DNA from: Sandaracinobacteroides saxicola
GTDB taxonomy: Bacteria; Pseudomonadota; Alphaproteobacteria; Sphingomonadales; Sphingomonadaceae
DNA: 64,000 bases
Assembly (NCBI RefSeq): GCF_014117445.1
Contig: NZ_CP059851.1
Location: forward strand, 1,612,001-1,676,000
Direction of reading: 5' to 3'
Positions within the stretch are counted from its first letter, which is position 1. Every line of letters begins with the position of its first letter. Below, piece after piece: positions 19,093 to 50,630 of this stretch. The notes beneath the pieces are model-generated. The model was not told where the DNA came from. It searched no databases and saw only the letters and a program-made list of their open reading frames with translations. A program made the position numbers and the translations under genes.

Positions 19093-19791
19093 TCAGCCCG
19101 CCGAATCCGGCCGGATCAATCCGATGGTGCGGTCGATCATGGCCCGGGTCGCAGTGCGCGCCCCTGCCGCGTCCCCGGCGCGCACCGCGACCAGAATGGC
19201 TTCATGCTCGGCCAGATCCCCCACCCGCACCCCGGCCGCCCTGTTGGTCTCGTGGATCGCCGAACCCAGCGCCGTCCGCACCAGATTGCCCAGCTGCGCG
19301 AACAACCGGTTGCCGCTGGCGTTCAGCAGGGCGCAGTGGAATGCCACATCACTTTCCAGCGGATCATCGCCGCCATCCGCCGCCGCCGCCATCCGCCGAT
19401 AAGCCGCCCCGATGGCATCGATCAACCGCGCATCCCGCAATCCCGCGGCCAGCGCGGCAGCCTCCGGCTCCACCGCGCGGCGCATCTGCAACAACTCCAG
19501 CAGAAAGGTCGGATCGCGCGACGCCGCGATCCAGTCCAGCACGTCGGGATCCAGCAGGTTCCACTCGGTTCGCGGCCGCACCCGGATGCCGATACGCGGC
19601 CGCGACGTCACCAGACCCTTGGCCGCCAGGATCTTCACCGCCTCGCGGATCACGCTGCGGCTCAGCGCATGCCTTTCCGACAAGGCCTGCTCGATGGGAA
19701 AGGGCCGGTCCGGCGGATGGACGCCGCGGACGATGTCGTGCCCCAGCGTCCGCATCAGGCGCCAGGTTGCCGATTCGCGCTGCTGGGTCAT
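19093..19791 (-). CDS. GntR/FadR-subfamily regulator of the adjacent sugar-acid genes
   Basis: The product has 232 residues. An N-terminal winged helix (ALSERHALSRSVIREAVKIL, GLVTSRPRIGIRVRPR) is followed by an FCD ligand-binding domain with the metal-type pattern D..H (ESDVAFHCALLNASGN) and later HEAIL. Members such as DgoR respond to sugar acids. Its ATG overlaps the stop of the kinase gene (ATGA), so the two are co-translated leftward. By context its effector is probably galactonate or a related 2-keto-3-deoxy acid. Confidence 0.85.
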   Translation of the reverse strand: MTQQRESATWRLMRTLGHDIVRGVHPPDRPFPIEQALSERHALSRSVIREAVKILAAKGLVTSRPRIGIRVRPRTEWNLLDPDVLDWIAASRDPTFLLELLQMRRAVEPEAAALAAGLRDARLIDAIGAAYRRMAAAADGGDDPLESDVAFHCALLNASGNRLFAQLGNLVRTALGSAIHETNRAAGVRVGDLAEHEAILVAVRAGDAAGARTATRAMIDRTIGLIRPDSAG

Positions 19792-20674
19792 GGCGCCTGC
19801 ACGGCCTGCCACAGCCGCACGATCCCCGCCAGAAAGGCCGTTTCCCCGTCCACAACCGTCGTCGTCCCGCCCTGCATCGCGATCGCCCGCGCATACAGCC
19901 CCGTCAGCCCGGGATCCCCCACCAGGGTCACGGCAATGGCCGGGTCGCCTAGATGACAGCGCACATCTTCGCCGATCAGCAACCCGCTGACATAATCGGG
20001 CGCCGCCCGGGCGCCGCCCGGGCGCCGCCCACGCCGGCGGCATGCGCGGCCCGCGCCTGGAACAGCATCGCCAGCAGGCTGCCCCTTCCGGCGTCGTCCA
20101 CCCCGGCGACGAAGCCTTCGCCCTGCCCCGGCCCGATCAAGCCCGACAGGGTGCCATGGTCGCGCAGCAGCGCATGAATCTCGCCCGTCATCGCCGTCCG
20201 GCTCGCCGTGATGCGGCCATCCGCCACGGTCGCCCACTTGCAGTGCGTGCCCGGCAGGCAGACGCGCTGCGGGCGGCCATCGGCATGCATCACCCCCAGC
20301 AGCTGCACCTCCTCCCCCCGCATCACGTCCACCAGACCCCCGGCCTGGTGACACACGCCGGGCACGATGCCGACTTCGCCCGGCACGATCCAGCGGACGG
20401 CCCGCGCCAACCCGGTCAGGTCCGCCGGCGTGGCGACATAACCCGCGTCCACCCAGCCACGGTTGGATCCGACCATCCCTGCACACAGCACGGGCAGCCT
20501 GCCATGCGCGGCGCGGATCGCCTCGACATCGCGGGCATAGTCGTCTCGGTCCATCGCGAGAATGCCGCGGCCGTCTCGCAACCGCGAGAGCAGGGTGCCA
20601 TCCGCATGGACGACCATGATCCGGCGATGCGTCGTGCCCCAGTCGATGGTGATAAACGGTTGTCCTGTCGCCAT
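19788..20674 (-). pseudogene. dgoK: 2-dehydro-3-deoxygalactonokinase, frameshifted by an 11-bp tandem repeat
   Basis: The N-terminal part reads MATGQPFITIDWGTTHRR (ATP-binding phosphate-1 region) through GPGQGEGFVAGVDDAGRGS in one frame. The C-terminal part, from DYVSGLLIGEDVRCHLGDP to the stop, is in another. The break is at three tandem copies of an 11-bp unit at 19997-20029. Removing one copy restores a single frame of about 291 residues, the normal DgoK length. Intact DgoK phosphorylates 2-keto-3-deoxygalactonate to the 6-phosphate in the De Ley-Doudoroff pathway. As written, translation ends at 19976 with a 14-residue foreign tail. It may be a true null, a phase switch or a sequencing error. 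Confidence 0.85.
19997..20029. repeat. Three tandem copies of CGGGCGCCGCC inside dgoK
   Basis: The copies are at 19997-20007, 20008-20018 and 20019-20029 and are identical. The unit length is not a multiple of three, so each gain or loss shifts the frame. Two copies give an intact kinase. Confidence 0.93.
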
Positions 20675-20718
20675 ACGGCCGGTCTAGCGCCAAAAGGTGG
20701 CGACGGCGCAACCCCTGT

Positions 20719-21555
20719 TCATGATCGGAGGGCCTGATACACAAGCGGATTGAGCGGGCTGTCCGCAATCGCGCCGGGTTCGCGGCCGCCAAGGAACTTG
20801 ATCCGGTCATGCTCCTGATGCGGGTTGCTCGGCTGGGCGACGCGCATGCCATCGGCGAAATATGTCACGATCATCGCCTCGCGCAGCGTGTTGGAAAAGT
20901 TCGCGCCCGCGGCATGCAATGTCCAGCCGTAATGGAAGCTGATGTCACCGGCACGCATCGGCACGCTGGCAACGACCGGGATATTCTCGGCTTCGATCAT
21001 CGCGCCATAGACGCGCTGCGATTCGTCCGAAATCTCGTGCTGCCCCAGAAAGCCCAGCCGGTGCGTGCCCGACGCATGCAGCATGCCACCCATATCGGCT
21101 TCGATGTTCATCAGCGGCATCCACAGCCCCAACGTCGTCGATTCGGCAAGCGGCCAATAATATTGGTCCTGATGCCATGGCGTCGGGTTGATGCCGCCGC
21201 CCGGCTCCTTGAACAGCGACTGATCGTGAAAGATGCGGACGCCTTCAACGCCCATCAGCTCGGCGGCAATCCGACCCAGGCGGGGAGACAGCACCAGCCG
21301 TTCGACGATCGGATCGCGCAGTCGCAGATTCTGCGTCTGCAGGAACGCCTTGCCGAACGCGTCGCGATCGGCGAGCGGCCGCTTCTCGGTATTGGCGGCG
21401 AAGGATGCTTCACGGATCGCGGTGCGGAAGGTCTCGACATCCTCCGCAGTGAACACTTGGGGCAATAGGACATGTCCGTCGCGGCGGAAACACGCGATCG
21501 CATCGGCTGGAAGGTCGTAAAACGCCTCGGTCCGTTCCCGCAATTCGGTCGCCAT
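20719..21555 (-). CDS. Phytanoyl-CoA dioxygenase family protein (Fe(II)/2-oxoglutarate oxygenase)
   Basis: The product has 278 residues. It shows the iron-binding triad in order: HQD in TPWHQDQYYWP and the distal His in HYGWTLHAAGANFS, with a following Arg (NTLREAMIVTYFADG) for 2-oxoglutarate. Such enzymes hydroxylate small molecules. The ATG at 21555 gives MATELRERTEAF; the frame extends 18 codons upstream without support. It is divergent from the AraD1 gene and precedes dgoK in the same direction, which suggests that it modifies a sugar-acid-related substrate. The exact reaction is unknown. Confidence 0.83.
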   Translation of the reverse strand: MATELRERTEAFYDLPADAIACFRRDGHVLLPQVFTAEDVETFRTAIREASFAANTEKRPLADRDAFGKAFLQTQNLRLRDPIVERLVLSPRLGRIAAELMGVEGVRIFHDQSLFKEPGGGINPTPWHQDQYYWPLAESTTLGLWMPLMNIEADMGGMLHASGTHRLGFLGQHEISDESQRVYGAMIEAENIPVVASVPMRAGDISFHYGWTLHAAGANFSNTLREAMIVTYFADGMRVAQPSNPHQEHDRIKFLGGREPGAIADSPLNPLVYQALRS

Positions 21556-21580
21556 TGCACATCCTCTCGACTTCCGGGAT

Positions 21581-21592
21581 TTGTATGATAAA
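21581..21592. promoter_or_regulatory. Possible FadR-type operator in the divergent gap
   Basis: TTGTATGATAAA lies between the divergent dioxygenase and AraD1 starts. It is a near match to the FadR-subfamily pattern TNGTNNNACNA with one departure. The neighbouring GntR regulator would be the natural ligand. This is a weak call. Confidence 0.25.
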
Positions 21593-21703
21593 TGACGGAC
21601 ACCCGTCAACGCGACCGGAGGAATCAGTCATTCAAATCGCCGGCATCACAACGCGCCTGGTCCTGGCCGGCGGTCCATCATGATTGACATGAAGGAAAGG
21701 GCG

Positions 21704-22687
21704 ATGCTGCTGGTGCAGTTCCGTGACGCAAACGGCGCGGCGGTATGCGGGCTGCTCGATGGTGATATCGTCCGGGCGCATGCGGCGTCGCGCTCGACCT
21801 ACGACCATGTCCGCGACTGCCTGGCCGCCGGACAGGGGTTGATCGACAGCGCGGATGCGTTCGGTGGCGCAGCCATGGGCTTTGCTGATCTTGCGGCGGG
21901 CGAACGCCTGCTTCCCCCGCTGACGCATCCCGATCCGCGCCGCTGCCTCGTCAGCGGTACGGGGCTCACGCATCGCGGCAGCGCCGACACCCGCGCGTTG
22001 ATGCACATGCCCGACGATGCCGCCGCGTCCGATACCATGCGGCTGTTCACGGCGGGCGTGAAGGGCGGACGGCCCGCGGGCGACGCGCCCGGCGTCCTGC
22101 CCGAATGGTTCTACAAGGGCGATGGCGACAGCATCGTTGCGCCGGGGGCGGCGATGCCCTCACCCGGTTTCGCCCTGGCGGACGGCGAAGAGCCCGAACT
22201 GGCGATGCTCTATGTCATCGACAACAACGGTATCCCACGCCGCATCGGCAGCGCGATCGGCAATGAATTTTCGGATCACGAGACCGAGCGGTTGAACTAT
22301 CTCTATCTCGCGCATTCGAAGCTGCGCGACTGTTCGTTCGGGCCGGCGCTCAGGGTCGGCGCCCCACCCGCCGACATTCATGGCGAAACCCGCATCCTGC
22401 GCGCCGGTCGCGAAGTCTGGCGCAAGCGGTTTGCGACAGGTGAGGCGAACATGACGCACAACCTCGCCAATCTCGAGCATCATCATTTCCGCTACGCCCG
22501 TCATTGCCGCCCGGGCGACGTCCATGTCCACTTCCTCGGAACCGCCGTGCTGAGCTTTGCCGACGGGTTCATGGTCGACGATGGCGACGTCATCGAGATC
22601 GGCGCCGACAGCTATGGCCCGCCGCTGCGCAACGTCGTGCGACGCGCACCGGACGGGACCGTGATGACGAAAGTGCAGCCCGCATGA
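21704..22687 (+). CDS. AraD1/GguC-type fumarylacetoacetate hydrolase-fold protein
   Basis: The product has 327 residues with the family stretch EPELAMLYVIDNNG, RRIGSAIGNEFSDHETERLN, LAHSKLRDCSFGPAL and NLEHHHFRYARHCRPGDVHV. Members of this group are linked to 2-keto-3-deoxy-pentonate (arabonate-type) dehydration, giving semialdehydes. In-frame ATGs lie at 21680 and 21692; 21704 is chosen because GGAAAGG stands just before it and the protein then starts MLLVQFRDANG. Its stop overlaps the next ATG by four bases. With the adjacent enolase-superfamily dehydratase it probably processes a sugar acid. Confidence 0.82.
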   Translation: MLLVQFRDANGAAVCGLLDGDIVRAHAASRSTYDHVRDCLAAGQGLIDSADAFGGAAMGFADLAAGERLLPPLTHPDPRRCLVSGTGLTHRGSADTRALMHMPDDAAASDTMRLFTAGVKGGRPAGDAPGVLPEWFYKGDGDSIVAPGAAMPSPGFALADGEEPELAMLYVIDNNGIPRRIGSAIGNEFSDHETERLNYLYLAHSKLRDCSFGPALRVGAPPADIHGETRILRAGREVWRKRFATGEANMTHNLANLEHHHFRYARHCRPGDVHVHFLGTAVLSFADGFMVDDGDVIEIGADSYGPPLRNVVRRAPDGTVMTKVQPA

Positions 22688-23823
22688 AGATCCGCAGCAT
22701 CAAGGCCTGGGCCGTCGCGGGCCCCTTGAGCGACCTGTGCTTCGCCAAGGTCGAAACCGACAACGGCCTGTTCGGCTGGGGCGAGGGATCGCTGCCCGGC
22801 AAGTGCGAGGGCGTGGCGGCTTCGGTGCGCGAGATGGCCCATCTGATTGCGGGCATGGACGCGCGGCGGATCGAGCATGTCTGGCAGCGGATGGTGCGCC
22901 ACAGCTATTGGAAGGCCGGGCCGATCCTCAGTTCCGCCGTCTCGGCGATCGACATGGCGTTGTGGGACATTCGCGGGAAATATCATGACGCGCCGGTTCA
23001 TGAATTGCTCGGCGGCGCGCTGCGCGACCGCATCTGGCTTTACGCCAACCTAGGGCTGTCCAGCGAGCCGGAGGTGCTGCGCGAGCGTGCCCGCGGCGCC
23101 CTGGCGGTGGGCTACACCGCGGTCAAATTCTATCCCCTCCCCCCGGTGATGAGCCTGGAAGGCCCCGCCGCCTACCGCACGGTGGTCGCCTGCTGCGAGG
23201 CGGTGCGCGACGAGATCGGCCCCGACGGCGTTTTCTGCCTCGACTTCCATGGCCGCTGCACCCCCAATGTCGCGGTCCAGATGGAGGCGGCCGTCCGGCA
23301 CACCCGTCCGCACTGGATCGAGGAGCCGACCGCGCCCGAGGATGTCGGTGCCCTGCAACGCTGCCAGGAGAAGTTCCTCACGCCGCTGGCGGTCGGCGAA
23401 CGCTACAACAGCCGCTGGCAGTTCCGCGAGATTTTCGAGCGGCGGCTGGCGGACGTCGTGCAGCCCGACGTCGCCAACTGCTATGGCATTTCCGAGATGC
23501 ACCGGATCGCGGCGATGGCCGAAACCTATGGCGTTGGCTACGCACCGCACAACCCCAATGGTCCGGTGCAGGCTCAGGCCAGCCTGCACCTGGCGGCGGC
23601 GGCGCAGAACTTCTCGATTCTGGAGCATCGCCACGATCTGATCGATGACATGGCGAAATTCGCCTCCGTGTCGCCGCGCAGCACCGGTGACGGCTGGGCG
23701 GCGATCCCGGAAGGCCCCGGCCTTGGCATCGAACTCGACGAAACGGCGCTCGACGCCATGCCGATCGGTGACCGCTGGGTGGCCGAAAGTCATCGCCGCG
23801 ACGGTTCGATCGGCGACTGGTGA
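22684..23823 (+). CDS. Galactonate dehydratase-like enolase superfamily enzyme
   Basis: The product has 379 residues. MKIRSIKAWAVAGPLSD starts a capping domain, followed by a TIM barrel with metal ligands in CLDFHGR, WIEEP and VGERYNSR, and the His in GYAPHNPNGPVQAQASLHLA. This arrangement is that of DgoD-type acid-sugar dehydratases, which remove water from an aldonate to give a 2-keto-3-deoxy acid. Linkage to dgoK and a FadR-type regulator favours D-galactonate or a near relative, but specificity within this superfamily is hard to read. It overlaps the previous gene (ATGA). Confidence 0.82.
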   Translation: MKIRSIKAWAVAGPLSDLCFAKVETDNGLFGWGEGSLPGKCEGVAASVREMAHLIAGMDARRIEHVWQRMVRHSYWKAGPILSSAVSAIDMALWDIRGKYHDAPVHELLGGALRDRIWLYANLGLSSEPEVLRERARGALAVGYTAVKFYPLPPVMSLEGPAAYRTVVACCEAVRDEIGPDGVFCLDFHGRCTPNVAVQMEAAVRHTRPHWIEEPTAPEDVGALQRCQEKFLTPLAVGERYNSRWQFREIFERRLADVVQPDVANCYGISEMHRIAAMAETYGVGYAPHNPNGPVQAQASLHLAAAAQNFSILEHRHDLIDDMAKFASVSPRSTGDGWAAIPEGPGLGIELDETALDAMPIGDRWVAESHRRDGSIGDW

Positions 23824-23846
23824 CGGCCGTCGCGCAGACATAAAAA

Positions 23847-23856
23847 GAACGCGTTC
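23847..23856. promoter_or_regulatory. GAACGCGTTC operator upstream of the symporter
   Basis: A perfect 10-base palindrome just after CATAAAAA, which could be a -10 box, 62 bases before the symporter start. The same palindrome occurs twice more around the TonB receptor promoter and once with a mismatch at 25393. Confidence 0.7.
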
Positions 23857-23917
23857 ACAAAACCGTCGCGATGGTCTAGGTTGCGTCCGCGCCGGGGATG
23901 GCGCGAGGGACCGGCCG

Positions 23918-25390
23918 TTGACGCAACCAGAAATCATTTTTGCCCGGGCACGCGAACGGGTCGGTCGGCTGCCGGTCAGCAGCAAATTCTACCAGGCGTT
24001 GGGCGGCCTGCCGGACGCCTTCAAGACCTGGGCATTCAACACCTTCCTGCTGCTCTATTACAACCAGATCCTGGGCCTGCCGGCATCCTGGGTATCGCTG
24101 GTGCTGATGCTGGCGCTGGCGGTCGATGCCGTCACCGATCCGATGGTCGGCGCCTGGTCCGACGGGCTGCGCAGCCGTTTCGGGCGACGGCACGGCATGA
24201 TGTACGCCTCGATCCTGCCGCTCGGCCTGTCGCTGTTTGCCATCTTCAACCCGCCGTCCGGCCTGTCTCACCCCGGGCTGGTGGCATGGCTGGCGCTGTT
24301 CGCCATCGGTGCTCGGGTGGCGATGACCTTCTTCCTGATTCCCTGGTCGGCGCTGTTCCCCGAACTGACCGACGACTATGCCGAACGCAGCGAGGTGCTG
24401 ACCTGGCGCTATCTGGTGAGTGGCGCCGGAACGGTGCTGTTCACCGTCGCCGTCTGGTCCTATATCTTCCCCAGCAGCGCCCGCTTCACGCCGGGGCAGC
24501 TGAACCCGCAGGGCTATCCGATCTTCGCGCTGGTGCTATCGCTCAGCGTCATGGCGGCGGCGTTGCTGACGACCGCATTGACCCAGCGCGAAATCCCCTA
24601 TCTGCGCCAGCCGGCGGTCGGCACCCGCTTCAGCCTGCGGCTGACGCTGCGTGATACGCTGGGCACGCTGCGCAACCCGGATTTCCGCATCCTCTTCATC
24701 GGCCTGCTGCTCTCCTCCACGATCAGCGGCACGCTGGGAGCGCTGGACATCTACATGATGACCTATTTCTGGGGGCTGACGCCCGAGCAGCTGCGCTGGT
24801 TCGCCATCGGCGGGATCGGCGGGATCATCGCCTTCGCCCTGATCCCGGCATTGCAGAAACGGTTGGACAAGAAGCACCTGTTGATCGCCGCGATGATGAT
24901 CAGTCTCGTGAACGGGCTGGCCTTCATCGGCATGCGCTTCGCCGGCGTACTGCCGCCGGCGGACGATCCGTGGCTGCTGCGCATCCTGCTTGCCAATGAA
25001 GTGTTCCGCATCGCGCTCGCCTTCGTCATCGGCGTGATGTTCGTGTCGATGATCGCCGACACCATCGATGCCCAGGAACTGCACAGCGGCCGTCGCCAGG
25101 AAGGCGTGTTCTCGGCCGCCATCTCCTTCGCCAACAAGGCGATCTCCGGGCTGGGAATCCTCGCTGCCGGCATCCTCCTCGACCTGATGGTCAGGCTGCC
25201 GCCCGGCGTCACCCCGGCCACCCTGCCCCCGGGCGCCGCGGGCCGGCTGGGACTGACCGTCATGGCCGTGTCCCTGCTCTACCTGCTGCCCTTCTGGATC
25301 GCCTCACGCTACAGCATCTCCCGCGCGCGCCACCGCGAAATCCTGTACGCCTTGGCGGAACGGCGGACCGCGGGCCTTGCGCCGAATTAA
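23918..25390 (+). CDS. GPH-type MFS sugar:cation symporter
   Basis: The product has 490 residues and about 12 membrane segments. FNTFLLLYYNQILGLPASWV, AVTDPMVGAWSDGLRSRFGR and GRRHGMM are typical of the glycoside-pentoside-hexuronide symporters, which bring glycosides or uronates across the inner membrane with H+ or Na+. The chosen start is TTG 23918 with GAGGGA eight bases earlier; the longer frame runs back into the dehydratase gene. A GAACGCGTTC site precedes it. Its cargo is probably the sugar or oligosaccharide brought in by the TonB receptor at 26.9 kb that carries the same operator. Confidence 0.88.
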   Translation: MTQPEIIFARARERVGRLPVSSKFYQALGGLPDAFKTWAFNTFLLLYYNQILGLPASWVSLVLMLALAVDAVTDPMVGAWSDGLRSRFGRRHGMMYASILPLGLSLFAIFNPPSGLSHPGLVAWLALFAIGARVAMTFFLIPWSALFPELTDDYAERSEVLTWRYLVSGAGTVLFTVAVWSYIFPSSARFTPGQLNPQGYPIFALVLSLSVMAAALLTTALTQREIPYLRQPAVGTRFSLRLTLRDTLGTLRNPDFRILFIGLLLSSTISGTLGALDIYMMTYFWGLTPEQLRWFAIGGIGGIIAFALIPALQKRLDKKHLLIAAMMISLVNGLAFIGMRFAGVLPPADDPWLLRILLANEVFRIALAFVIGVMFVSMIADTIDAQELHSGRRQEGVFSAAISFANKAISGLGILAAGILLDLMVRLPPGVTPATLPPGAAGRLGLTVMAVSLLYLLPFWIASRYSISRARHREILYALAERRTAGLAPN

Positions 25391-25392
25391 AT

Positions 25393-25402
25393 GAACGCGT
25401 AC
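25393..25402. promoter_or_regulatory. GAACGCGTAC, one-mismatch copy of the operator
   Basis: It lies three bases after the symporter stop and 51 bases before the preferred start of the COQ4-like gene. It differs from GAACGCGTTC at one base. Confidence 0.45.
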
Positions 25403-25453
25403 AATAAATTCAATGACGCCATGCGCGCGTCATGCTCCAACGGGATTTCAACG

Positions 25454-26146
25454 ATGACCCCTGCCCTTGACCGCGACTTCGCACAGCATCTGCTGAATAC
25501 CTACGACGATCCCGGCGCGCACGGCGTCCACCTGCTGTTCAACCAGTGGTGGCGCTATGCGCCCGAGCCGGCGATTGCCGCCTATGCCGCCGATTTCGCG
25601 CGCCTGCCCGACCAGCGCGAGTTCGTCGAGCGTCACTATTTCGCCGAGCCGCTCGACCTGGACGGGCTGGCCGCCTATCCCGCCGGCACGCTTGGGCGGG
25701 ACTATCATGATTTCATCGTGGACAACCGCCTCGAGAAGAATATCGCCATCAATTACAGGCAGTTCCACGAGATGTTGCAGGCGTCGGGGCAACTCGACCG
25801 CATGCCTGCCGAGCTGCGCTACGCCATCATCCGCGGCTTTCAGGTGCATGACCTGCTGCACGTCCTGACCGGCTATCCCGCGACCGGGCCGGGGGAGATC
25901 GCCTTGCAGGCTTTCTGCCTGGCGCAAATCCGCTTCCCCTATTTCGCGATGTGGATGTCGGTGGTGACGACGCGGATGACGTTTCTCGATCCGCAGCAGA
26001 TCGTGCCGATGATGGACGCCATCAGCGATGGCTGGCGACGGGGCCGGCAGGCGCGCAACATCCAGTTTGCGGAATGGGAGCGGATGCTGGACCAGCCGAC
26101 CGCGGAGCTGCGCGCACGGCATGACCTGCAAGCTGCGATGCACTAA
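25454..26146 (+). CDS. COQ4-like protein
   Basis: The product has 230 residues. The stretch GFQVHDLLHVLTGYPATGPG and the Glu right after it give HDxxH followed by E after 11 residues, the zinc motif of COQ4. COQ4 acts in ubiquinone biosynthesis and has been tied to removal of the ring carboxyl. The frame extends to an ATG at 25391, but that part overlaps the operator-like site, so 25454 is preferred. It is odd to find this gene between a sugar symporter and a TetR regulator; it could be a paralogue with a different substrate. Confidence 0.75.
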   Translation: MTPALDRDFAQHLLNTYDDPGAHGVHLLFNQWWRYAPEPAIAAYAADFARLPDQREFVERHYFAEPLDLDGLAAYPAGTLGRDYHDFIVDNRLEKNIAINYRQFHEMLQASGQLDRMPAELRYAIIRGFQVHDLLHVLTGYPATGPGEIALQAFCLAQIRFPYFAMWMSVVTTRMTFLDPQQIVPMMDAISDGWRRGRQARNIQFAEWERMLDQPTAELRARHDLQAAMH

Positions 26147-26213
26147 CCGTTCCCAAATCCCCCCATGTCGCACTATGACAAAGGCCGGTGACATCAGGGA
26201 CAAGGAACGGGCC

Positions 26214-26828
26214 ATGGGCCGGCCGGCATTGAGCGAATTGCAGCGGACCGAAGCGCGGCGGCGCATTCGTGACGCGGCGCTGGACATCTATCGCGAAGGC
26301 GGGGTCGAGGCGGTGTCGATCCGGTCGGTGGCGCAGCGCGTGGGGGTGGCCGCCTCCGGCATCTATTCCTATTTCGACAGCCGGCAGGCGCTGATCGAAT
26401 CGCTGTGGCTCGACCCCGTGCTGGCCACCGTGCAGCAGATGATCGATGTTGCCGCGCAGACCCCCGATCCCATCGCGCGGATCGAGCGGGTGCTGCGCAT
26501 CTATATCGACTTCGCGCGCGACAATCCGGACGTCTATCGCGGTGCCTTCCTGTATGTGCGGCCCGACTCGGCCGCCGCCGTGCCGGGGCGCAACCTCTCT
26601 GAACTGCCCTTCCACACGATCATGCGTGATGCCATCGACGAGGCGCAGCGCGACAACCGCGCCGGTGAGGGCGATCCCGCGCTGATGGCACAATTGCTGT
26701 GGGCCGGGCTGCACGGCGCGCTGGCGCTGCCGGTCAATGTCGAGCATTGGGCGTTCGCGCCGCAGCCGGCGCTTGCCGAGGCCATGATCGATCTGCTGCT
26801 GCGCGGGATCCGCTGCGTGGCTTTCTGA
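26214..26828 (+). CDS. TetR family transcriptional regulator
   Basis: The product has 204 residues. The N-terminal helix-turn-helix is clear (RRRIRDAALDIYREGGVEAV, SIRSVAQRVGVAASGIYSYF), followed by an all-helical ligand domain with the WHG-type feature LLWAGLHGALALP. ATG 26214 has AAGGAA before it and is preferred over ATG 26175. The gene sits directly before two GAACGCGTTC palindromes and a TonB receptor, so it is one candidate to bind them. The compact palindrome with a central CG is also typical of LacI-type repressors, which are absent here. Confidence 0.86.
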   Translation: MGRPALSELQRTEARRRIRDAALDIYREGGVEAVSIRSVAQRVGVAASGIYSYFDSRQALIESLWLDPVLATVQQMIDVAAQTPDPIARIERVLRIYIDFARDNPDVYRGAFLYVRPDSAAAVPGRNLSELPFHTIMRDAIDEAQRDNRAGEGDPALMAQLLWAGLHGALALPVNVEHWAFAPQPALAEAMIDLLLRGIRCVAF

Positions 26829-26838
26829 GAACGCGTTC
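26829..26838. promoter_or_regulatory. Upstream GAACGCGTTC operator of the TonB receptor
   Basis: A perfect palindrome starting right after the TetR stop and lying 11 bases ahead of a possible -35 box (TTGACC at 26849). Its centre is 55 bases from the downstream copy, about five helix turns. Confidence 0.72.
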
Positions 26839-26883
26839 AATTTAATCCTTGACCCACCCTCGTCGCTTCGGCACATAAATAAA

Positions 26884-26893
26884 GAACGCGTTC
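26884..26893. promoter_or_regulatory. Downstream GAACGCGTTC operator of the TonB receptor
   Basis: A perfect palindrome just after CATAAATAAA, which may be the -10 region, so bound protein would block transcription start. The CATAAA-to-palindrome layout matches the one ahead of the symporter gene. Confidence 0.72.
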
Positions 26894-26928
26894 AAAAAAA
26901 CACGGGCGCGCCTCGGGGGAGGATGGTC

Positions 26929-29307
26929 ATGGGCGGAATGGGCAGATCCGGGAGCACTGTTCTACTGCTTGCGCTGGGCGGCATGGCATCGACACAGACG
27001 GCGGCACAGACAGCGACGCGCGTGGAGGCCGCGCCACCCACCATCATCGTCACCGCGGAGAAGCGCGATGCGCCGCTGCTGACCACGCCGGCCTCGGTCG
27101 GGGTGATCGGCGACGCCGCGATCGGCAACGCTTTTCTGGTCGATACCATCGACCTGACATTGCTCGACCCGTCGCTGACCATCGGCGGCGGGCGCATCCG
27201 CATCCGCGGCGTGGGCACCGACGCCTTCGACGTGGCGGCGGAACCCAGCGTGTCGTTCGCGGTCGATGGCGTGGTGCTCGGTCGCACCGGCCAGGCATTC
27301 CTGGACCTGGTCGATGTCGAACGGGTGGAGGTGCTGCGCGGACCGCAAGGCACGCTCTATGGCAAGAATGTGTCGGCCGGGCTGGTCAATGTCATCACCA
27401 AGGCGCCGTCGCGTCGGCTGGAGGCGGAGGCCGAGTTGATCGCGGTGGAACAGGGCGAGTATCAGGTGAAGGCCGCCGTATCGGGGCCGGTCAGCGAACG
27501 GCTGCGGCTGCGCCTGTCGGGCAGCTACAAGCGGATCGGCGATTTCCTGGAAAACCCGGTGATCGGGCGCAAGACCAACGGCGACGAAAGCTGGACGGTG
27601 CGCGGCAAGGCGACGCTCGACCTGTCCGACAGCGTCGAGGCGACGCTGAGCGTCTGGACGCGCCGTGGCGACCGAACGGGGCCGGACGAGACCTTCCGCA
27701 TCGTCAGCGATCCTACGATCGCCGCCGCCATCCGCCCGGTGGTGGCGGGCATCGGCAACCGGCAGGTGGCGACCGACGGCACCAGCTTCACGCGGCTCGA
27801 CGAGACCGGTGCCATCCTCGACCTCGCCTGGCGGCCCGACGATGGCGCCACGCTGCGTTCCATCAGCGCCTTCATCGCCACGAAAACGCGCGGCAGCGAC
27901 GATGTCGACGGCCGTCCCGACCTGACACCGCTGTACAGCGGCGGCATCACACCGCTGGGCACCGCCGGGCCGATCATCCTGACACAGGCGAACCGGCAGA
28001 AGATCACGCAATATTCGCAGGAATTCCGCCTCACGTCGCCCGATGGCCCGGTGCAATATGTCGCCGGGCTCTATGGCTTCAAGCTGAGACTGGAGGACAG
28101 CCTGACACGCGCCTTCGATGTCTGCATCCCCACCGGCCTCAACCTGCTGCCGGCGCTGCCGCCGGGATCGCCCTGCTTCGATCCGGCGCTGCTGCGGGGT
28201 CAGCCGCCGGGCATCCTGCCGTTGACCACCGCCTTCGGCGCGGCGGCGGGCCGGGCGGCGGTGGACCGGGTGGTGGACACCGAAACCGCCGCGGCGTTCG
28301 GCCAGGTGGACGTGCGGGTCGCGCCGCGGCTGACGCTGACCGGGGGTCTGCAGCTGCAATATGACCGCACCGCCTTCACCGTCAGCCAGCCCTTCCCTTC
28401 GCAGCCGCCGCTGGGGTTCGGCGCCGACCTGGGGCCGACACGGGGAGCGACCGATTCGACCGCGCTGTCGGGCCGGGTCGCCGCCCGTTTCGACATCCGG
28501 CCGGACCTCAGCAGCTATGCTTCCTACACCCGCGGCTACAAGTCGCCGACCGCGAGCCTGCAGGGGGCGACGGTGGGACGGGTGGACGCGGAAACGTCGA
28601 ACGCGTTCGAAATAGGGCTGAAGGCCAATCTGGCCGACGGCCGGTTGTTCATCCAGGCGGCCGCCTTCTGGACCGACTATCGCAATTTCCAGACCGAGGC
28701 GTTCAGCCCCGCTTCCGCCAGCTTCGTGCTGACCAACGCCGGCAACACCCGCACGCGCGGCATCGAGTTGAGCCTGACCGCGCGGCCGACCCGGCACCTG
28801 AGCCTGAGCGGCGGCCTGTCCTATACCGACGCCACCATCCGGCGTTTCCCGCAGGGCCAATGTTTCGCGCCGACCGCGCTCGACCCGCGCTGCGTCACGC
28901 GCATCGTCAACGGCGCGGTGGTGCAGTCGGCCGACCTGGCTGGTGGCGACCTGCCCAATTCGCCCGACCTGAAGGTCAACCTGACGGTGCGGTACGAGGC
29001 GCCGGTGAGCGAGACGGTGACACTGTTCGGACAAGCCGCCTTCGTGTGGCAGGACAAGGTGCAATATGACCTGTCGCAGAACCCCAACACCATCCAGGGC
29101 GCCTATGGCCTGCTGGATGTCAGCGCCGGCATCGGCAGCCGTGACGAGCGCGTGCAGTTGACGCTGTTCGCGAAGAACCTGCTCGACCAGCGCTGGAGCA
29201 GCTTCATCTTCCAGGACTTTGTCCAGCGCGACAGCGTCAACATCCTGCAATTCTTCGACAAGCGATCGTCCCGCCTGTTCGGTGCCTCGTTGCGCTTCCG
29301 CTATTGA
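26929..29307 (+). CDS. TonB-dependent receptor
   Basis: The product has 792 residues: signal peptide ending near AAQT, plug domain starting PTIIVTAEKRDAPL with RIRGVGTDAF and RVEVLRGPQGTLYGKN, then a 22-strand outer-membrane barrel ending in an aromatic residue (RLFGASLRFRY). The receptor imports ligands too large for porins using TonB energy. The ribosome site GGGAGG suits ATG 26929 better than ATG 26923. The GAACGCGTTC sites link it to the symporter at 23.9 kb, suggesting one uptake route for a shared carbohydrate. Confidence 0.93.
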   Translation: MGGMGRSGSTVLLLALGGMASTQTAAQTATRVEAAPPTIIVTAEKRDAPLLTTPASVGVIGDAAIGNAFLVDTIDLTLLDPSLTIGGGRIRIRGVGTDAFDVAAEPSVSFAVDGVVLGRTGQAFLDLVDVERVEVLRGPQGTLYGKNVSAGLVNVITKAPSRRLEAEAELIAVEQGEYQVKAAVSGPVSERLRLRLSGSYKRIGDFLENPVIGRKTNGDESWTVRGKATLDLSDSVEATLSVWTRRGDRTGPDETFRIVSDPTIAAAIRPVVAGIGNRQVATDGTSFTRLDETGAILDLAWRPDDGATLRSISAFIATKTRGSDDVDGRPDLTPLYSGGITPLGTAGPIILTQANRQKITQYSQEFRLTSPDGPVQYVAGLYGFKLRLEDSLTRAFDVCIPTGLNLLPALPPGSPCFDPALLRGQPPGILPLTTAFGAAAGRAAVDRVVDTETAAAFGQVDVRVAPRLTLTGGLQLQYDRTAFTVSQPFPSQPPLGFGADLGPTRGATDSTALSGRVAARFDIRPDLSSYASYTRGYKSPTASLQGATVGRVDAETSNAFEIGLKANLADGRLFIQAAAFWTDYRNFQTEAFSPASASFVLTNAGNTRTRGIELSLTARPTRHLSLSGGLSYTDATIRRFPQGQCFAPTALDPRCVTRIVNGAVVQSADLAGGDLPNSPDLKVNLTVRYEAPVSETVTLFGQAAFVWQDKVQYDLSQNPNTIQGAYGLLDVSAGIGSRDERVQLTLFAKNLLDQRWSSFIFQDFVQRDSVNILQFFDKRSSRLFGASLRFRY

Positions 29308-33505: not shown

Positions 33506-34258
33506 TCAGAGCGCGGCATAGCGCTGTCGTTCGGCGGCGACGCGGGCGCGGGCCTGTTCGACTTCGTGCACCTCGGTGGCGGCGAGCAGCGAATCGACGG
33601 CGCGCGAGAGGTGGGTGTGCATGGCGCGGCGGGCGGCCTCGGGATCGCGGCGGCGCAGCGCGTCGACGATGGCGCTGTGCTCGTCCTCCCGCGGGATGAT
33701 GCCGGCCTGCTGCGCCTTCAGCGTCAGCAGTTTCGTTTGTGGCGAGCGGGCGCGGGCGGCCCACAGCGCCTCGACGGTATCGACCATCACGCTGTTGCAG
33801 GTGGCGGCGGCGATCTGGACATGGAAGCGCCGGTCGGCATCTTCGGACATGACGACGTCGCGCTCGTTCTCGCGGCGCATCTCGTCCACCAGAAGTTCGA
33901 GCGCGATGATCTGTTCGGGGGTGATGCGCGCGGCGGCGAGCGCGCAGACCTCGCTTTCGAAGGCGCGGCGGGCTTCCAGCAGCTCGAACGGGCCGACGTC
34001 GGTGGCGCCCGCGGTGCCGCCGACGGGCTGGTTGGCGGTGACATACACCCCGGAGCCGACCCGCACCTCGATCAGGCCGTCGAGTTCGAGGGCGATCAGC
34101 GCCTCCCTGACCGTGGGGCGGGAGACGGCATAGGTCTGGGCGAGGTCGCGTTCCGACGGCAGGCGTTTGCCCACCGCGAACTCGCCGCGAAGAATGCGCG
34201 CGGACAGGTCCTGCGCAACCCGTTCATAGAGCCGACCGGAGGGTGCCTTTTCGTTCAT
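33506..34258 (-). CDS. UxuR/ExuR-like GntR (FadR subfamily) regulator
   Basis: The product has 250 residues: a winged helix ([20 protein letters not shown]) and [16 protein letters not shown], then an FCD domain with [20 protein letters not shown] and [12 protein letters not shown]. It leads the operon gntR-kdgK-uxuB-xylD and is divergent from manD. A TGGTCAGACCA site 14 bases from its start fits autoregulation. Its effector is probably a hexuronate or a pathway intermediate. Similar sites elsewhere in the window suggest a wider regulon. Confidence 0.87.
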
Positions 34259-35689: not shown

Positions 35690-38600
35690 TCAGAAATTCG
35701 CCCGCACCCCGAAGGTCAGGTTGATGCCGTTCTTGAAGGCATTGTCGACGCGCGATTTCTCGTCGCCATATTTGCCGTCCTTCTGGCGGGCGAACTGGAA
35801 GGTCCGCGTGTTCGTCAGGTTCTGCGCGTCGATCCTGAATTCGATGTTTTTGGTGACCTTGTAGCCGGCGGAGGCATCGAGGTAGCCGCGACCGTTCGAC
35901 CAGATCTGCGTATCGATGCCGTTGTTCTGCGTCAGGAAGGAGGTGACATTGCCGCCTTCGAACTGTTCGGCGCGATAGGTGTAGGAGGCGCGCAGCGACA
36001 GCGGGCCCTTTTCGTAATAGACCGTGCCGCTGAGCGTGTATTTCGGCAGGATCCGCAACCGCTGCTTGGTGCCATCGGTCGCCGTCCAGGGCAGATCGGC
36101 GGTGCTGATCAGCGTGAGGCTGCCGATCAGGCCGAGGCCGTCGAACGGCTGCGGCAGGAAGCGGAGCTGTTGCTGATAGGCGAATTCGAAGCCCTTGACG
36201 GTGTAGCGGTCGAGGTTGACCGGACGGTTGACGGTGAAGGGCTCGTTCGGATTGACGCCATTTCCCGTGTTGATCGGGGAGGAAAAGAGCGAATCGGGAA
36301 TGCCGAGCGTGCTGAAGGGAATGTTGGTCTCGGTCTGCTGGACCGGGCGGTTGGTGATGACCTTGGTGAAATAGCCGGCGCTGAGCACGCCGCCGCGGTC
36401 GAAATACCATTCACCGATGAAATCCCAGTTGCTGGCATATTGCGGTGCCAGGTCCGGATTGCCGATGGTGATCGAGGCGATGCCCGGGTTGGGAATGCTG
36501 ACCGGGCTGGAGATCAGGCGCAGCGAGCTGCGCGTCAGCGTGCGGCCGTACAGCACCCGCGCGAGGATGGTATCCGTGACATTGTACACGGCCGAGGCCG
36601 AGGGCAGCCAGTTCTTGTAGCCGCCGCGGATGTTCACCGGTGTGGCGACGCCGGCGCGCAGGGCGAAGTTGTTGATGTCGGTGGTGGTGTCGACATAGCG
36701 CAGGCCGACATTGCCGCGCAGCGTGTTGCCGAACAGCTCGGTGCGGAAATCGGTCTGCACGAACAGGGCCTTGATGCGCTCGACCGTCTTGAAGGAGGTG
36801 CTGGCATCGAACGGCGCGGAGGCGTTGGCGCTGTCGATGTTGAGCGTGTTTTCCAGATAGTCGCGGCTGACGAACAGCCACGACGTGGGCGCATTGGCCG
36901 AGCCCTGGTTGCTGAACCCGCTGAGGTTGAGCGGGGTCAGGATCGTCTGGAAATAGGCTGCTTTCTGCGCCGGCGTGAGGGCGCCGAAGCGGCCGACGCC
37001 CGGCACGACGAACTGGCTGAGCGGATTGGCGGGGTCATTGGCGCCGTTGCCGAACGAGCTGCGCTGAAGCTCCTTCGTCGATTCGGTATAGGCGCCACCG
37101 ATCTTCAGCTTGCCGTCGAACGCGCCCCAGCCCCAATCATATTCGACGACCAGGCGGGCATTGCGCTGGAGATCCTTTTCCTGGGTGCGGAAACCGGTCA
37201 GCAACAGCTCGCGATAGCTGGTGGCGTCCAGCAGGCTGCGGTTGGTCGACAGGGTGGGAAAGAAGGGGTCGGTCGCGGAATCGAAGGTGATCGTGTGCAG
37301 CGCATCGAGGCCGTTGATGATCGCCGTGTTGTCCGACCGTTCCGCCTTGCTGCGGGACTGGCCGGCCTGCGCCACCAGGGTGAGGTCCTCCGTCAGCTTG
37401 AAGCGGCCGTTCAAGGTGATGTTGAAGAATTCCGTGCGCGACTTGGTATAGACATCGGCATTCTGCAGCGTGACGTTGCCGAAGCTGCCCTGAAGCTTGC
37501 CATTGGCATCGACGGAGGGCTTCAGCGGAACCCAGGCCGGGATGTTCGTGCTGGAGATCGCGCCGTTGCTGACCAGGAAATTGGGATTGAAGGCCGGTCC
37601 CTGCGCGATCCGGATGGAGCCGCGGGTGGGGAAGCCGAGGATGTGGCGCTGAAACTCGTCGTCGAGCTTTGAATAGAGCATGTCGAGGCTGACATCGACG
37701 CGGTCGGTCTTCCACTGCAACGAGGCGTTGCCGCCCCAGCGTTCGCGCTCGTTCTGCGTCGCCACGGAACGGAACAGCCGCGGGACGAGCGCTTCGGACA
37801 GGTCCGCGCGGGACACGCCGTTCAGGTTGGCGGCGGGGTTGGTGTAATCCAGGCGGAAGGTATCGAGGCCATTCGTGCCGCCGGGCGGCGGGGTGACGCT
37901 GGCACCGCCGCGCAGGTCGTTGAATGCAGAGTTGGGGTTGAAGCGGACGTTGGCCGCCTCGCTGTAATACATGCCGGTCGATTCGAAGCCGCCGCGACGG
38001 TTGCGGTTGCCCGACTTCGCGACGCCGATCAGGATGCCGAAATCGCCGAAGTTGCCGCTGACCAGCAGGTTGCCGCGCGGGTTCCAATATTTGGACAGCG
38101 TGTTGTACTGCCCCGACACACCACCGGAAATCTTCAGGCCGGGGCGGTCGAAGGGTTTGGGCAGGCGCAGGTTGACGACGCCGGCGACGCCGCCCTCCTC
38201 CAATTCCGCCAGCGGCGTCTTGATGACGTCGGCCCGTGCGAACAGTTCGGAAGGGAAAACGTCATAGTTGAAGTCCCGGGTGGAACCGCCGATGTTCGTC
38301 GAGGAGGTGGTCTTGATCTGCGCGCCGTTCAGCGTGGTCAGCGTGAATTCGGCGCCAAGGCCGCGCAGCTGGATGCGGTTGCCTTCGTTGCTTTCGGAAT
38401 TGCGCACCATCTCGATGCCGGGAATGCGCTGCAACGCTTCGGCGATGTTCTGCGTGGGGAATTTGCCGATATCCTCGGCGACGATCGAATCGACGACGGC
38501 GATGGCCTGGCGCTTGATGTCGAGGCCGGCCTCGAGACTGGCGCGGAAGCTGGTGACGACGATGTCGTCAGGCTCGGGCGCCGGCGGTGTGGCAGGGACC

Positions 38601-38731
38601 GGCGCGGTCGTTGCCGGCGGTTTGGACGCGGCGGGGGCGGGTTTGGCCGGTGCCGCCTGCGCGTGCAGTGGTGACACGATCATCATGGACATGGTCAGCG
38701 CGGTTGCGCCCATCAGGTGCCGTTTCACCAC
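35690..38731 (-). CDS. TonB-dependent receptor, Caulobacter type
   Basis: The product has about 1013 residues. A signal peptide ending near LHAQA is followed by an Ala/Pro-rich linker (residues 28-53), then DDIVVTSFRASLEAGLDIKR and a plug with ALQRIPGIEMVRNSESNEGN and GLGAEFTLTTLNG, then a large barrel ending NLTFGVRANF. This type is abundant in Caulobacter and sphingomonads for plant-polymer fragments. The start is GTG (38731 or 38728; the second has better spacing from GGGGAG). Flanking TGGTNNNACCA sites and xylX on the other side suggest import of xylo- or glucurono-oligosaccharides. Confidence 0.93.
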   Translation of the reverse strand: MVKRHLMGATALTMSMMIVSPLHAQAAPAKPAPAASKPPATTAPVPATPPAPEPDDIVVTSFRASLEAGLDIKRQAIAVVDSIVAEDIGKFPTQNIAEALQRIPGIEMVRNSESNEGNRIQLRGLGAEFTLTTLNGAQIKTTSSTNIGGSTRDFNYDVFPSELFARADVIKTPLAELEEGGVAGVVNLRLPKPFDRPGLKISGGVSGQYNTLSKYWNPRGNLLVSGNFGDFGILIGVAKSGNRNRRGGFESTGMYYSEAANVRFNPNSAFNDLRGGASVTPPPGGTNGLDTFRLDYTNPAANLNGVSRADLSEALVPRLFRSVATQNERERWGGNASLQWKTDRVDVSLDMLYSKLDDEFQRHILGFPTRGSIRIAQGPAFNPNFLVSNGAISSTNIPAWVPLKPSVDANGKLQGSFGNVTLQNADVYTKSRTEFFNITLNGRFKLTEDLTLVAQAGQSRSKAERSDNTAIINGLDALHTITFDSATDPFFPTLSTNRSLLDATSYRELLLTGFRTQEKDLQRNARLVVEYDWGWGAFDGKLKIGGAYTESTKELQRSSFGNGANDPANPLSQFVVPGVGRFGALTPAQKAAYFQTILTPLNLSGFSNQGSANAPTSWLFVSRDYLENTLNIDSANASAPFDASTSFKTVERIKALFVQTDFRTELFGNTLRGNVGLRYVDTTTDINNFALRAGVATPVNIRGGYKNWLPSASAVYNVTDTILARVLYGRTLTRSSLRLISSPVSIPNPGIASITIGNPDLAPQYASNWDFIGEWYFDRGGVLSAGYFTKVITNRPVQQTETNIPFSTLGIPDSLFSSPINTGNGVNPNEPFTVNRPVNLDRYTVKGFEFAYQQQLRFLPQPFDGLGLIGSLTLISTADLPWTATDGTKQRLRILPKYTLSGTVYYEKGPLSLRASYTYRAEQFEGGNVTSFLTQNNGIDTQIWSNGRGYLDASAGYKVTKNIEFRIDAQNLTNTRTFQFARQKDGKYGDEKSRVDNAFKNGINLTFGVRANF

Positions 38732-48610: not shown

Positions 48611-49339
48611 ATGGCCGGCGGTCTGCACGGAAAACGCGCCCTGGTGACCGGTTCGGCCGGCGCCATCGGTTCCGCCGTGGCCCGCGCGCTGCGGGCGGCT
48701 GGGTGCGAGCTGCTGCTGCTGGACCGCGATGCCGTGGCGAACAATGCGCTGGCGGCGGCGCTGGGTGGCGAGGCCATGGCGGTCGACCTGGGCGACGCGG
48801 CGGCGGTGGCGGCGGTGGCCGGAACGGTGGGCACGGTCGACATCCTGGTGAACAACGCCGGCATCCTATCCAACAGCAAGATTGCCGCGACCGAGCTCGA
48901 GGACTGGCGACAGGTGCAGGCGGTGAATGTGGAGGCGGCGCTGATCCTGTCGAAGGCGGTGCTGCCGCACATGCGCGCGCGACGCTGGGGGCGGATCATC
49001 AACCTGTCCTCCTATGCCGCCAAGTCCGGCGGGCTGACGGCGGGGACGGCCTATTCGGTGTCGAAGGCGGCACTGATCGGCCTGACCTTTTCGATCGCGC
49101 GCGAAACCGCGGGCGAGGGCGTGACCGCCAATGCGGTCGCGCCGGCCTATGTCATGTCTCGCATGATTTCGGAGCAGCTGACACCGGCCCAACGCGCGGC
49201 GCAGCTGGCGGCGATCCCAGTGGGGCGTTTCTGCGATCCGGAGGAGGTGGCGCATGCGGTGCTGTTCCTCGCCTCGCCGCTGGCGGGGTTCATTACCGGC
49301 GAAGTGATCGACATGAATGGCGGGCTGCACTTTGACTAA
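48611..49339 (+). CDS. SDR family oxidoreductase
   Basis: The product has 242 residues of the classical short-chain dehydrogenase type. ALVTGSAGAIGSAVARAL (NAD(P) loop), NNAG in VDILVNNAGIL, the catalytic Ser in IINLSSY and YSVSK are intact. It opens the run of tightly coupled genes at 48.6-62.4 kb. The substrate is probably a sugar or sugar acid. The end overlaps the next gene by 23 bases. Confidence 0.88.
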   Translation: MAGGLHGKRALVTGSAGAIGSAVARALRAAGCELLLLDRDAVANNALAAALGGEAMAVDLGDAAAVAAVAGTVGTVDILVNNAGILSNSKIAATELEDWRQVQAVNVEAALILSKAVLPHMRARRWGRIINLSSYAAKSGGLTAGTAYSVSKAALIGLTFSIARETAGEGVTANAVAPAYVMSRMISEQLTPAQRAAQLAAIPVGRFCDPEEVAHAVLFLASPLAGFITGEVIDMNGGLHFD

Positions 49340-50630
49340 GGCGCTCGCCCTGCTGCTCGCGCTGCTCACCCTGTCGGCGTGCGACCGGGCGGAGACGAAC
49401 GGCAAGGTGGTGGTGACCGTCTGGACGGAATATTCCGCGGCGCCGCAGAAGCCGGTGTTCGAGGCCATCGTCGCCGAGTTCAACCGCACGCACCCGGGCA
49501 TCGAGGTGCGCCACACCGGTTTCGAGAACACGCCCTATGAAACGACACTGAAGACCGCCTTCGCCGGCGGCAAGCCGCCCGACATCGTCGAGATGAACGG
49601 CGGCGCGAACGCGTTCCAATATGCCCGCGCCGGGCTGCTGGCCGACCTGACGGATTTCGTCGCACCGATCCGGCCCCGCATCGCCGCCGGGATGGAACCG
49701 GCGTTTGACTATCGCGGCCGTGCCTATGGCATTCCGTGGCAGCTCTCGATCGGCAATCTGCTGTGGTACAATCCGGCGATGCTTCGCGCGCGCGGCATCG
49801 ATCCGAACAGGCTGGCGACATGGAACGGCTTCCTGAGCGCCGCCGAGCGCTTCAAGGCGCAAGGCCTGGCCCCCATCGCGTTCGGCAATCGCGAGGGGTG
49901 GCCGGGCAATCACCTGTTCACCCATTTCTCGCGCCGGCTGATGACGACCGCGCAATATACCGCGATTGCCACCCGCACCTTCGACCCGACGGTCACGTCC
50001 GATTTCGGCTGGGACGATCCGGTGCCGGTGCGCGCCTGGGCGCTGTATCGCGACCTGCGCGACCGCGGATTGTTCACCGCGGGCTATCTGTCAGACGATA
50101 CGCCGGCCGCCAGCAGCCTGTTTTTGAACGGCAAGGTACCCTTTTATTTCATGGGGTCCTGGTTCATCGGCGATGTGGAGGTGCAGGGCGGCACGACGCC
50201 GATCGATGTGACGATGTTTCCCACGGTCGATGGCGCGCCGGGCAAGTCGGGCGATCTCGTCACCAACACCCTCGTCTTCACGCTGACCAAGGCGTCGAAA
50301 CAGCCCGAGGCGGCGAAGCTGTTCCTCGCCTATCTGACCACGGAGCCGGTGCAGCGCAAATGGGCCGAAGGCGTGCAGGGCCTGGTGCCCTATCGCTATG
50401 ACACGCGCGGCTGGAGTTTAAAGCCGCTGCTCAGGAAGGTCGCGGCGCTTTATGCCAGCGCGACCTCGGCCGCGCCATTCCTCGACATGCTGGAGGACCA
50501 GTCGTGCAACGTACCGGGCATCTGGGACGGCAGCGTTGCGGTGCTGACCGGGCAGCTGAGCCCGCAGGAAGCGGGCGCGATGCACGAGAAGTGCGTCAAG
50601 CAACTGGAGCGCGCCAATGGCTGGCGCTAG
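49317..50630 (+). CDS. ABC sugar transporter substrate-binding lipoprotein
   Basis: The product has 437 residues. The lipobox LSAC at residues 19-22 anchors it to the membrane. The mature part fits family 1 sugar-binding proteins ([54 protein letters not shown]). It should bind an oligosaccharide and deliver it to the two permeases that follow. ATG 49317 or TTG 49332 may start it; both give a valid signal peptide. ABC sugar importers are not common in sphingomonads, which mostly use TonB receptors with symporters. Confidence 0.88.

Follow-up and report, generated by a model that had tools for sequence, protein, structure and literature searches.

A small local regulon predicted around a TetR-family regulator and a Coq4-like protein in Sandaracinobacteroides saxicola

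The operator palindrome of the mycobacterial TetR-family regulator KstR (Rv3574) is TAGAAC(N2)GTTCTA (PMC1995591), and Caenibius tardaugens has a TetR repressor, EdcR, that responds to estrogens (PMC8700777). EdcR resembles the regulator described below in being a sphingomonad TetR protein with palindromes that overlap the -10 boxes of a local cluster, but its operator TnnCnnTACnAnTnGTAnnGnnA is unrelated and its target genes are other ones (PMC8700777). We analyzed a stretch of 64,000 nucleotides of the Sandaracinobacteroides saxicola genome (the window, to which positions refer unless otherwise noted) that contains four related palindromes. We consider it about 90% probable that these palindromes serve as operators for the TetR protein whose gene is at 26214-26828, a regulator that would repress a symporter-coq4-tetR operon and a TonB receptor gene until a ligand releases it. 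What the computation shows is the gene order and the sites themselves, along with their conservation with TetR and their absence from loci that lack it.

Exact and one-mismatch searches of the window agree with the original prediction on where these palindromes lie, with GAACGCGTTC present exactly at 23847-23856, 26829-26838 and 26884-26893, and a one-mismatch copy, GAACGCGTAC, at 25393-25402. The first of these, predicted operator 1 (AGAACGCGTTCA), is located ~60 bp upstream of the start of a gene coding for a GPH-family (MFS_2) cation symporter (23918-25390, forward strand, TTG start) and just past a CATAAA (23839-23844, forward strand), a -10-like hexamer. The symporter promoter presumed here has no good -35. 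Predicted operator 2 (TGAACGCGTACA) comes right after the symporter stop and ~50 bp upstream of the ATG of a gene coding for a Coq4-like protein (PF05019; 25454-26146, forward strand), and an alternative coq4 start at 25391 would take in this operator. The tetR gene, also on the forward strand, codes for the protein presumed to bind all four sites, and is directly followed by predicted operator 3 at 26829, the weakest of the four. Operator 3 is upstream of the presumed TonB receptor promoter (26849-26879, forward strand), which is composed of a -35-like TTGACC (26849-26854), a long 19-bp spacer and a CATAAA (26874-26879). Predicted operator 4 at 26884 then falls where transcription is expected to start, with the ATG of the TonB-dependent receptor (Plug plus beta-barrel; 26923-29307, forward strand) ~30 bp further downstream. 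A CATAAA-like -10 region placed in the same layout ahead of the palindromes at 23847 and 26884 had been claimed, and the hexamer is indeed present at 23839 and 26874, ending 2 bases ahead of the first palindrome and 4 bases ahead of the second, with TTGACC accompanying only the latter. Both promoters are presumed ones, as a strict sigma-70 scan reported none, having missed the CATAAA at 23839 and scored TTGACC-19-CATAAA below its threshold.

The regulon is surrounded by a sugar-acid and glycoside island (19093-24000 and 29320-51480). Immediately ahead of operator 1 are genes coding for a GguC-like protein (21680-22687) and a galactonate-dehydratase-like enzyme (22684-23823), and the island also codes for GntR regulators (an ExuR-like one at 33506), an IlvD/Edd-type dehydratase, a fructuronate-reductase-like enzyme, a KDG-kinase-like protein, ManD at 34243 (above the NCBIfam cut-off), GH4, GH1, an SSF symporter and a second TonB receptor (35690-38731).

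Two further exact copies of GAACGCGTTC are present in the window, one at 28599 within the TonB receptor coding sequence and one at 49607 within the open frame 49317-50630 that codes for a solute-binding protein. Allowing 0-1 mismatch, the window contains 10 matches relative to 3.74 expected, a number reached by 1 of 100 shuffles. This is a moderate excess, and as evidence of function the count alone is weak because the GAACNNGTTC core is frequent in coding DNA. Specifically, pattern searches, on which all of our genome-wide statements are based, found 100 copies of this core in the genome versus 17 of its reversed control. A genome-wide motif scan, which the original prediction had proposed as a check, found 14 exact copies of GAACGCGTTC in the 3.36 Mb of the single contig, and only three of these, at window positions 23847, 26829 and 26884, are outside genes with A/T-rich flanks. 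The remaining 11 have G+C-rich, coding-like flanks, score below 7 with a matrix trained on orthologous loci, and are mostly inside long open frames with coding-like GC3, their coding status being assigned from these open frames and GC3 rather than from annotation. The longer pattern WWWWGAACNNGTTCWWWW matched 12 places in the genome at up to 2 mismatches (10 for the reversed control), with only 26884, 23847 and 25393 matching at up to 1 mismatch and 26829 falling among the other 9. The abundance of the core in coding DNA and the coding appearance of 11 of the 14 exact copies are what would be expected if the palindromes were functionless products of chance or codon usage. However, the four noted sites are intergenic and flanked by A/T, they lie at presumed promoters, and an independent matrix predicts them; we regard a chance origin as highly improbable. 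It is the flanks and the intergenic context that make a strong case for these sites.

The product of tetR has the expected features of its family, with an N-terminal PF00440 helix-turn-helix domain (42.6 bits, cut-off 24), a C-terminal PF13305 domain (38.2 bits, cut-off 26.8), an all-helical AlphaFold (AF2) model with a confident TetR fold (pLDDT 91.4) and, as is typical of the family, a palindromic site, here a predicted operator, in or beside its own operon. A scan of a genome collection located TetR orthologs at 25 loci, with 32-49% identity to the window protein. The clade occurs in Sphingomonadaceae, in Caulobacterales and in metagenome-assembled genomes (MAGs) labelled as other phyla. 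MAGs supplied many of the orthologs, and misbinning of their contigs is possible. The closest relatives within the family, in G141 (38%), G152 (46%) and G461 (45%), all have GAACNNGTTC palindromes with A/T-rich flanks beside tetR, with the site located ~50 bp ahead of coq4-tetR in G141 and sites flanking tetR on either side in G152 and G461. Overall, 21 of the 25 loci have the core between -1.7 and +1 kb relative to tetR, and all 24 cores in these loci have 9-10 A/T among their 10 flanking bases. This corresponds to a density of 0.29 cores per kb near TetR versus 0.033 per kb in the rest of the same loci, or ~nine times background. The same background of 0.033 per kb is seen at 27 loci of other TetR genes, where each of the three cores present has only 3-4 A/T. 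Three more loci have a displaced or variant site, located 3.0 kb upstream beside an amidohydrolase/symporter pair in L129 and containing one extra spacer base (a 3-bp spacer) in L109 and L124. A site is thus present at 24 of the 25 TetR loci, with none found at the TetR locus of L120. In most cases it is located shortly ahead of the coq4-tetR pair, orthologous pairs have an operator where operator 2 sits in the window, and the ortholog consensus is AATGAACATGTTCATT. A more distant TetR gene (24% identical) adjoins a similar site, GGAACGCGTACATT, at position 2164 of L029 (score 28.1), which suggests from sequence that this operator type extends beyond the clade.

There are also differences between the window and its orthologs. 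The recognition-helix region of the window TetR reads GVAASGIYSYF versus GVSVGTIYxxF in most orthologs (VAASGIY versus VSVGTIY), and three of the four window sites have an A at the operator start, on one side, where ortholog sites have a T in 98% of arms. With both the recognition helix and the sites changed, the specificity of this TetR may have shifted.

We used 26 sites located next to TetR orthologs in other genomes to construct a 30-column matrix, with the window held out. The four highest matches in the 64-kb window are the sites at 25393 (30.7), 26884 (25.4), 23847 (24.0) and 26829 (12.6), with the next match at only 1.5. Among 60 simulated 64-kb windows the best match had a mean of 0.8 (sd 4.5) and a largest value of 16.0. 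On matrix score alone the 26829 site is therefore unconvincing, since simulated windows reach 16.0, and the other three sites are convincing. That all four sites are predicted by a matrix that had not seen them, together with the presence of a site at nearly all orthologous TetR loci, bears out the proposal of a local regulon. A genome-wide pattern search for a wider regulon found no convincing additional site in this genome, the best being a weak one at genome position 419433 (score 16.5).

The original prediction had named the TetR at 26214 as a candidate binder, and had held a LacI-type repressor encoded elsewhere to be equally possible given a central CG in the palindrome. The former choice is favored by the fact that the motif follows TetR across genera and into the MAGs labelled as other phyla, and the equal standing given to LacI is not upheld. 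Sites of LacI-family proteins have a central CG, and the argument from the palindrome centre fails because the centre of GAACGCGTTC is GC. A LacI-family sugar repressor would suit a regulon located inside a sugar-acid catabolic island with galactonate and mannonate dehydratases, the IlvD/Edd-type dehydratase, the KDG-kinase-like protein and the ExuR-like GntR. However, the matrix finds no site at the sugar-acid genes in the window outside 23847-26893, and the motif accompanies TetR at distant loci whose neighboring genes differ. We therefore judge LacI control to be very unlikely; the sequence evidence makes the local TetR the very probable binder.

The partner genes of TetR provide a further comparison, as coq4 accompanies it at 15 of the 25 loci and a close amidohydrolase gene at 8, with both found at none. 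Coq4 relatives that lack a neighboring TetR (L077-L080, comprising two G020 loci, one G166 locus and a paralog in the same genome as the window) gave no matrix match of at least 12. In contrast, TetR orthologs located beside the amidohydrolase instead of coq4 retain the operator. These results indicate that the operator tracks TetR and not Coq4. The Coq4 paralog in the window's own genome (L080; G000:C1:1521083-1521751) is 47% identical and has no operator nearby.

The nearest solved relatives of the amidohydrolase at the eight loci are PtmU3 and DitZ, which we take to belong to diterpenoid pathways; a search of the window's own genome, run without a positive control, found no such amidohydrolase. 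Symporters homologous to that of the window (32-35% identical) are beside the operator in L108, L110, L114, L125 and L129, and related TonB receptors are present at three loci (L108, L110 and L129). In L108 (9057-14587), L110 (10248-14588), L125 (10504-14405) and L129 (2-7633), an amidohydrolase, an operator and a GPH symporter occur in this order, and a TetR belonging to the clade comes after them. This layout has the logic of the window minus coq4, and in L108 and L110 TetR adjoins the symporter and a TonB receptor. Cytochrome P450 genes are also found in the vicinity, with three consecutive ones (L075, 8-3927) located in G141 ~2.4 kb from coq4-tetR, on the tetR side, and another in L123 (8284-9489) separated from tetR by one gene.

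We propose that a TetR dimer would bind a 16-20 bp site consisting of the GAACNNGTTC core with A/T-rich flanks. Without inducer it would occupy the site just downstream of the symporter promoter -10 (23847), the one that separates the symporter gene from coq4 (25393), and the two that flank the TonB receptor promoter (26829, 26884). Bound TetR would block RNA polymerase, covering the transcription start at 23847 and 26884, and this would give an autorepressed GPH symporter-coq4-tetR operon and a separately repressed TonB receptor gene. A small ligand, probably hydrophobic or acyl-CoA-like, would release TetR and thereby allow joint production of an outer-membrane uptake protein (the TonB receptor), an inner-membrane uptake protein (the GPH symporter) and the Coq4-like protein. 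In this scheme we infer binding, the choice of repression over activation, and what kind of ligand is involved. The 55-base spacing of the 26829/26884 pair, which the original prediction gave correctly and considered suited to looping, makes DNA looping possible and does not imply it, as two adjacent repressor sites that bracket a promoter are enough without looping.

TetR could instead bind these same sites as an activator or dual regulator rather than mainly as a repressor, given that operator 3 is just upstream of a -35-like hexamer, where an activator could act, and that the promoters are poor matches to the sigma-70 consensus. However, the better sites at 23847 and 26884 are just downstream of a -10, where bound protein blocks initiation, and repression is the usual mode of autoregulated TetR proteins. 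We consider activation unlikely and retain repression by the local TetR as the preferred reading.

The predicted targets suggest an uptake function, and the amidohydrolase and P450 neighbors at other loci offer a speculative hint, by analogy, of a hydrophobic, terpenoid-like substrate. Given the sugar-acid island in which the window lies, the substrate could also be a glycoside of this type of compound, which is equally speculative. A wider idea, for which we would give rather poor odds, is that TetR proteins of this clade act widely as sensors for a single class of hydrophobic compounds (terpenoid- or quinone-like), and that bacterial Coq4-like proteins may handle or break down imported compounds rather than serve ubiquinone synthesis, being interchangeable with the PtmU3/DitZ-like amidohydrolase.

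The palindromes very probably serve the local TetR as operators, forming a compact autoregulated regulon, and a system of this kind is ordinary. The literature searched, which covered few subscription journals, contained no report linking Coq4 with a TetR operator and none of this operator outside KstR, and the regulator-operator pair and the Coq4 link appear undescribed there. The analysis would provide an uncharacterised TetR clade with an operator and tie a bacterial Coq4-like protein to uptake genes under probable ligand control, in a regulon that is small and self-contained. The structural matches of the predicted TetR model include TetR/FadR repressors (acyl-CoA-binding FadR proteins), and the likeness to acyl-CoA-binding repressors of the FadR/FasR type is one of predicted fold, whereas their targets are other ones. 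Resemblance to KstR is found in the helix-turn-helix, for which KstR ranks among the nearest solved proteins (36.7 bits over residues 7-62), in the recognition-helix region (DVAVGTLYRYF, versus GVSVGTIYxxF in most orthologs), in the shared GAACNNGTTC operator core (PMC1995591) and in having an operator that lies within the promoter region of the regulator itself. The window protein itself is not KstR, as it scores 44.4 bits versus the NCBIfam KstR equivalog cut-off of 280. The flanks differ as well, being CTA...TAG in KstR and AAT...ATT here, with a T before GAAC in 98% of ortholog arms where KstR has an A. Finally, there are no cholesterol genes at the window locus, where the predicted regulon is very small and local, with a GPH symporter, a coq4-like gene, tetR and a TonB receptor as its targets.
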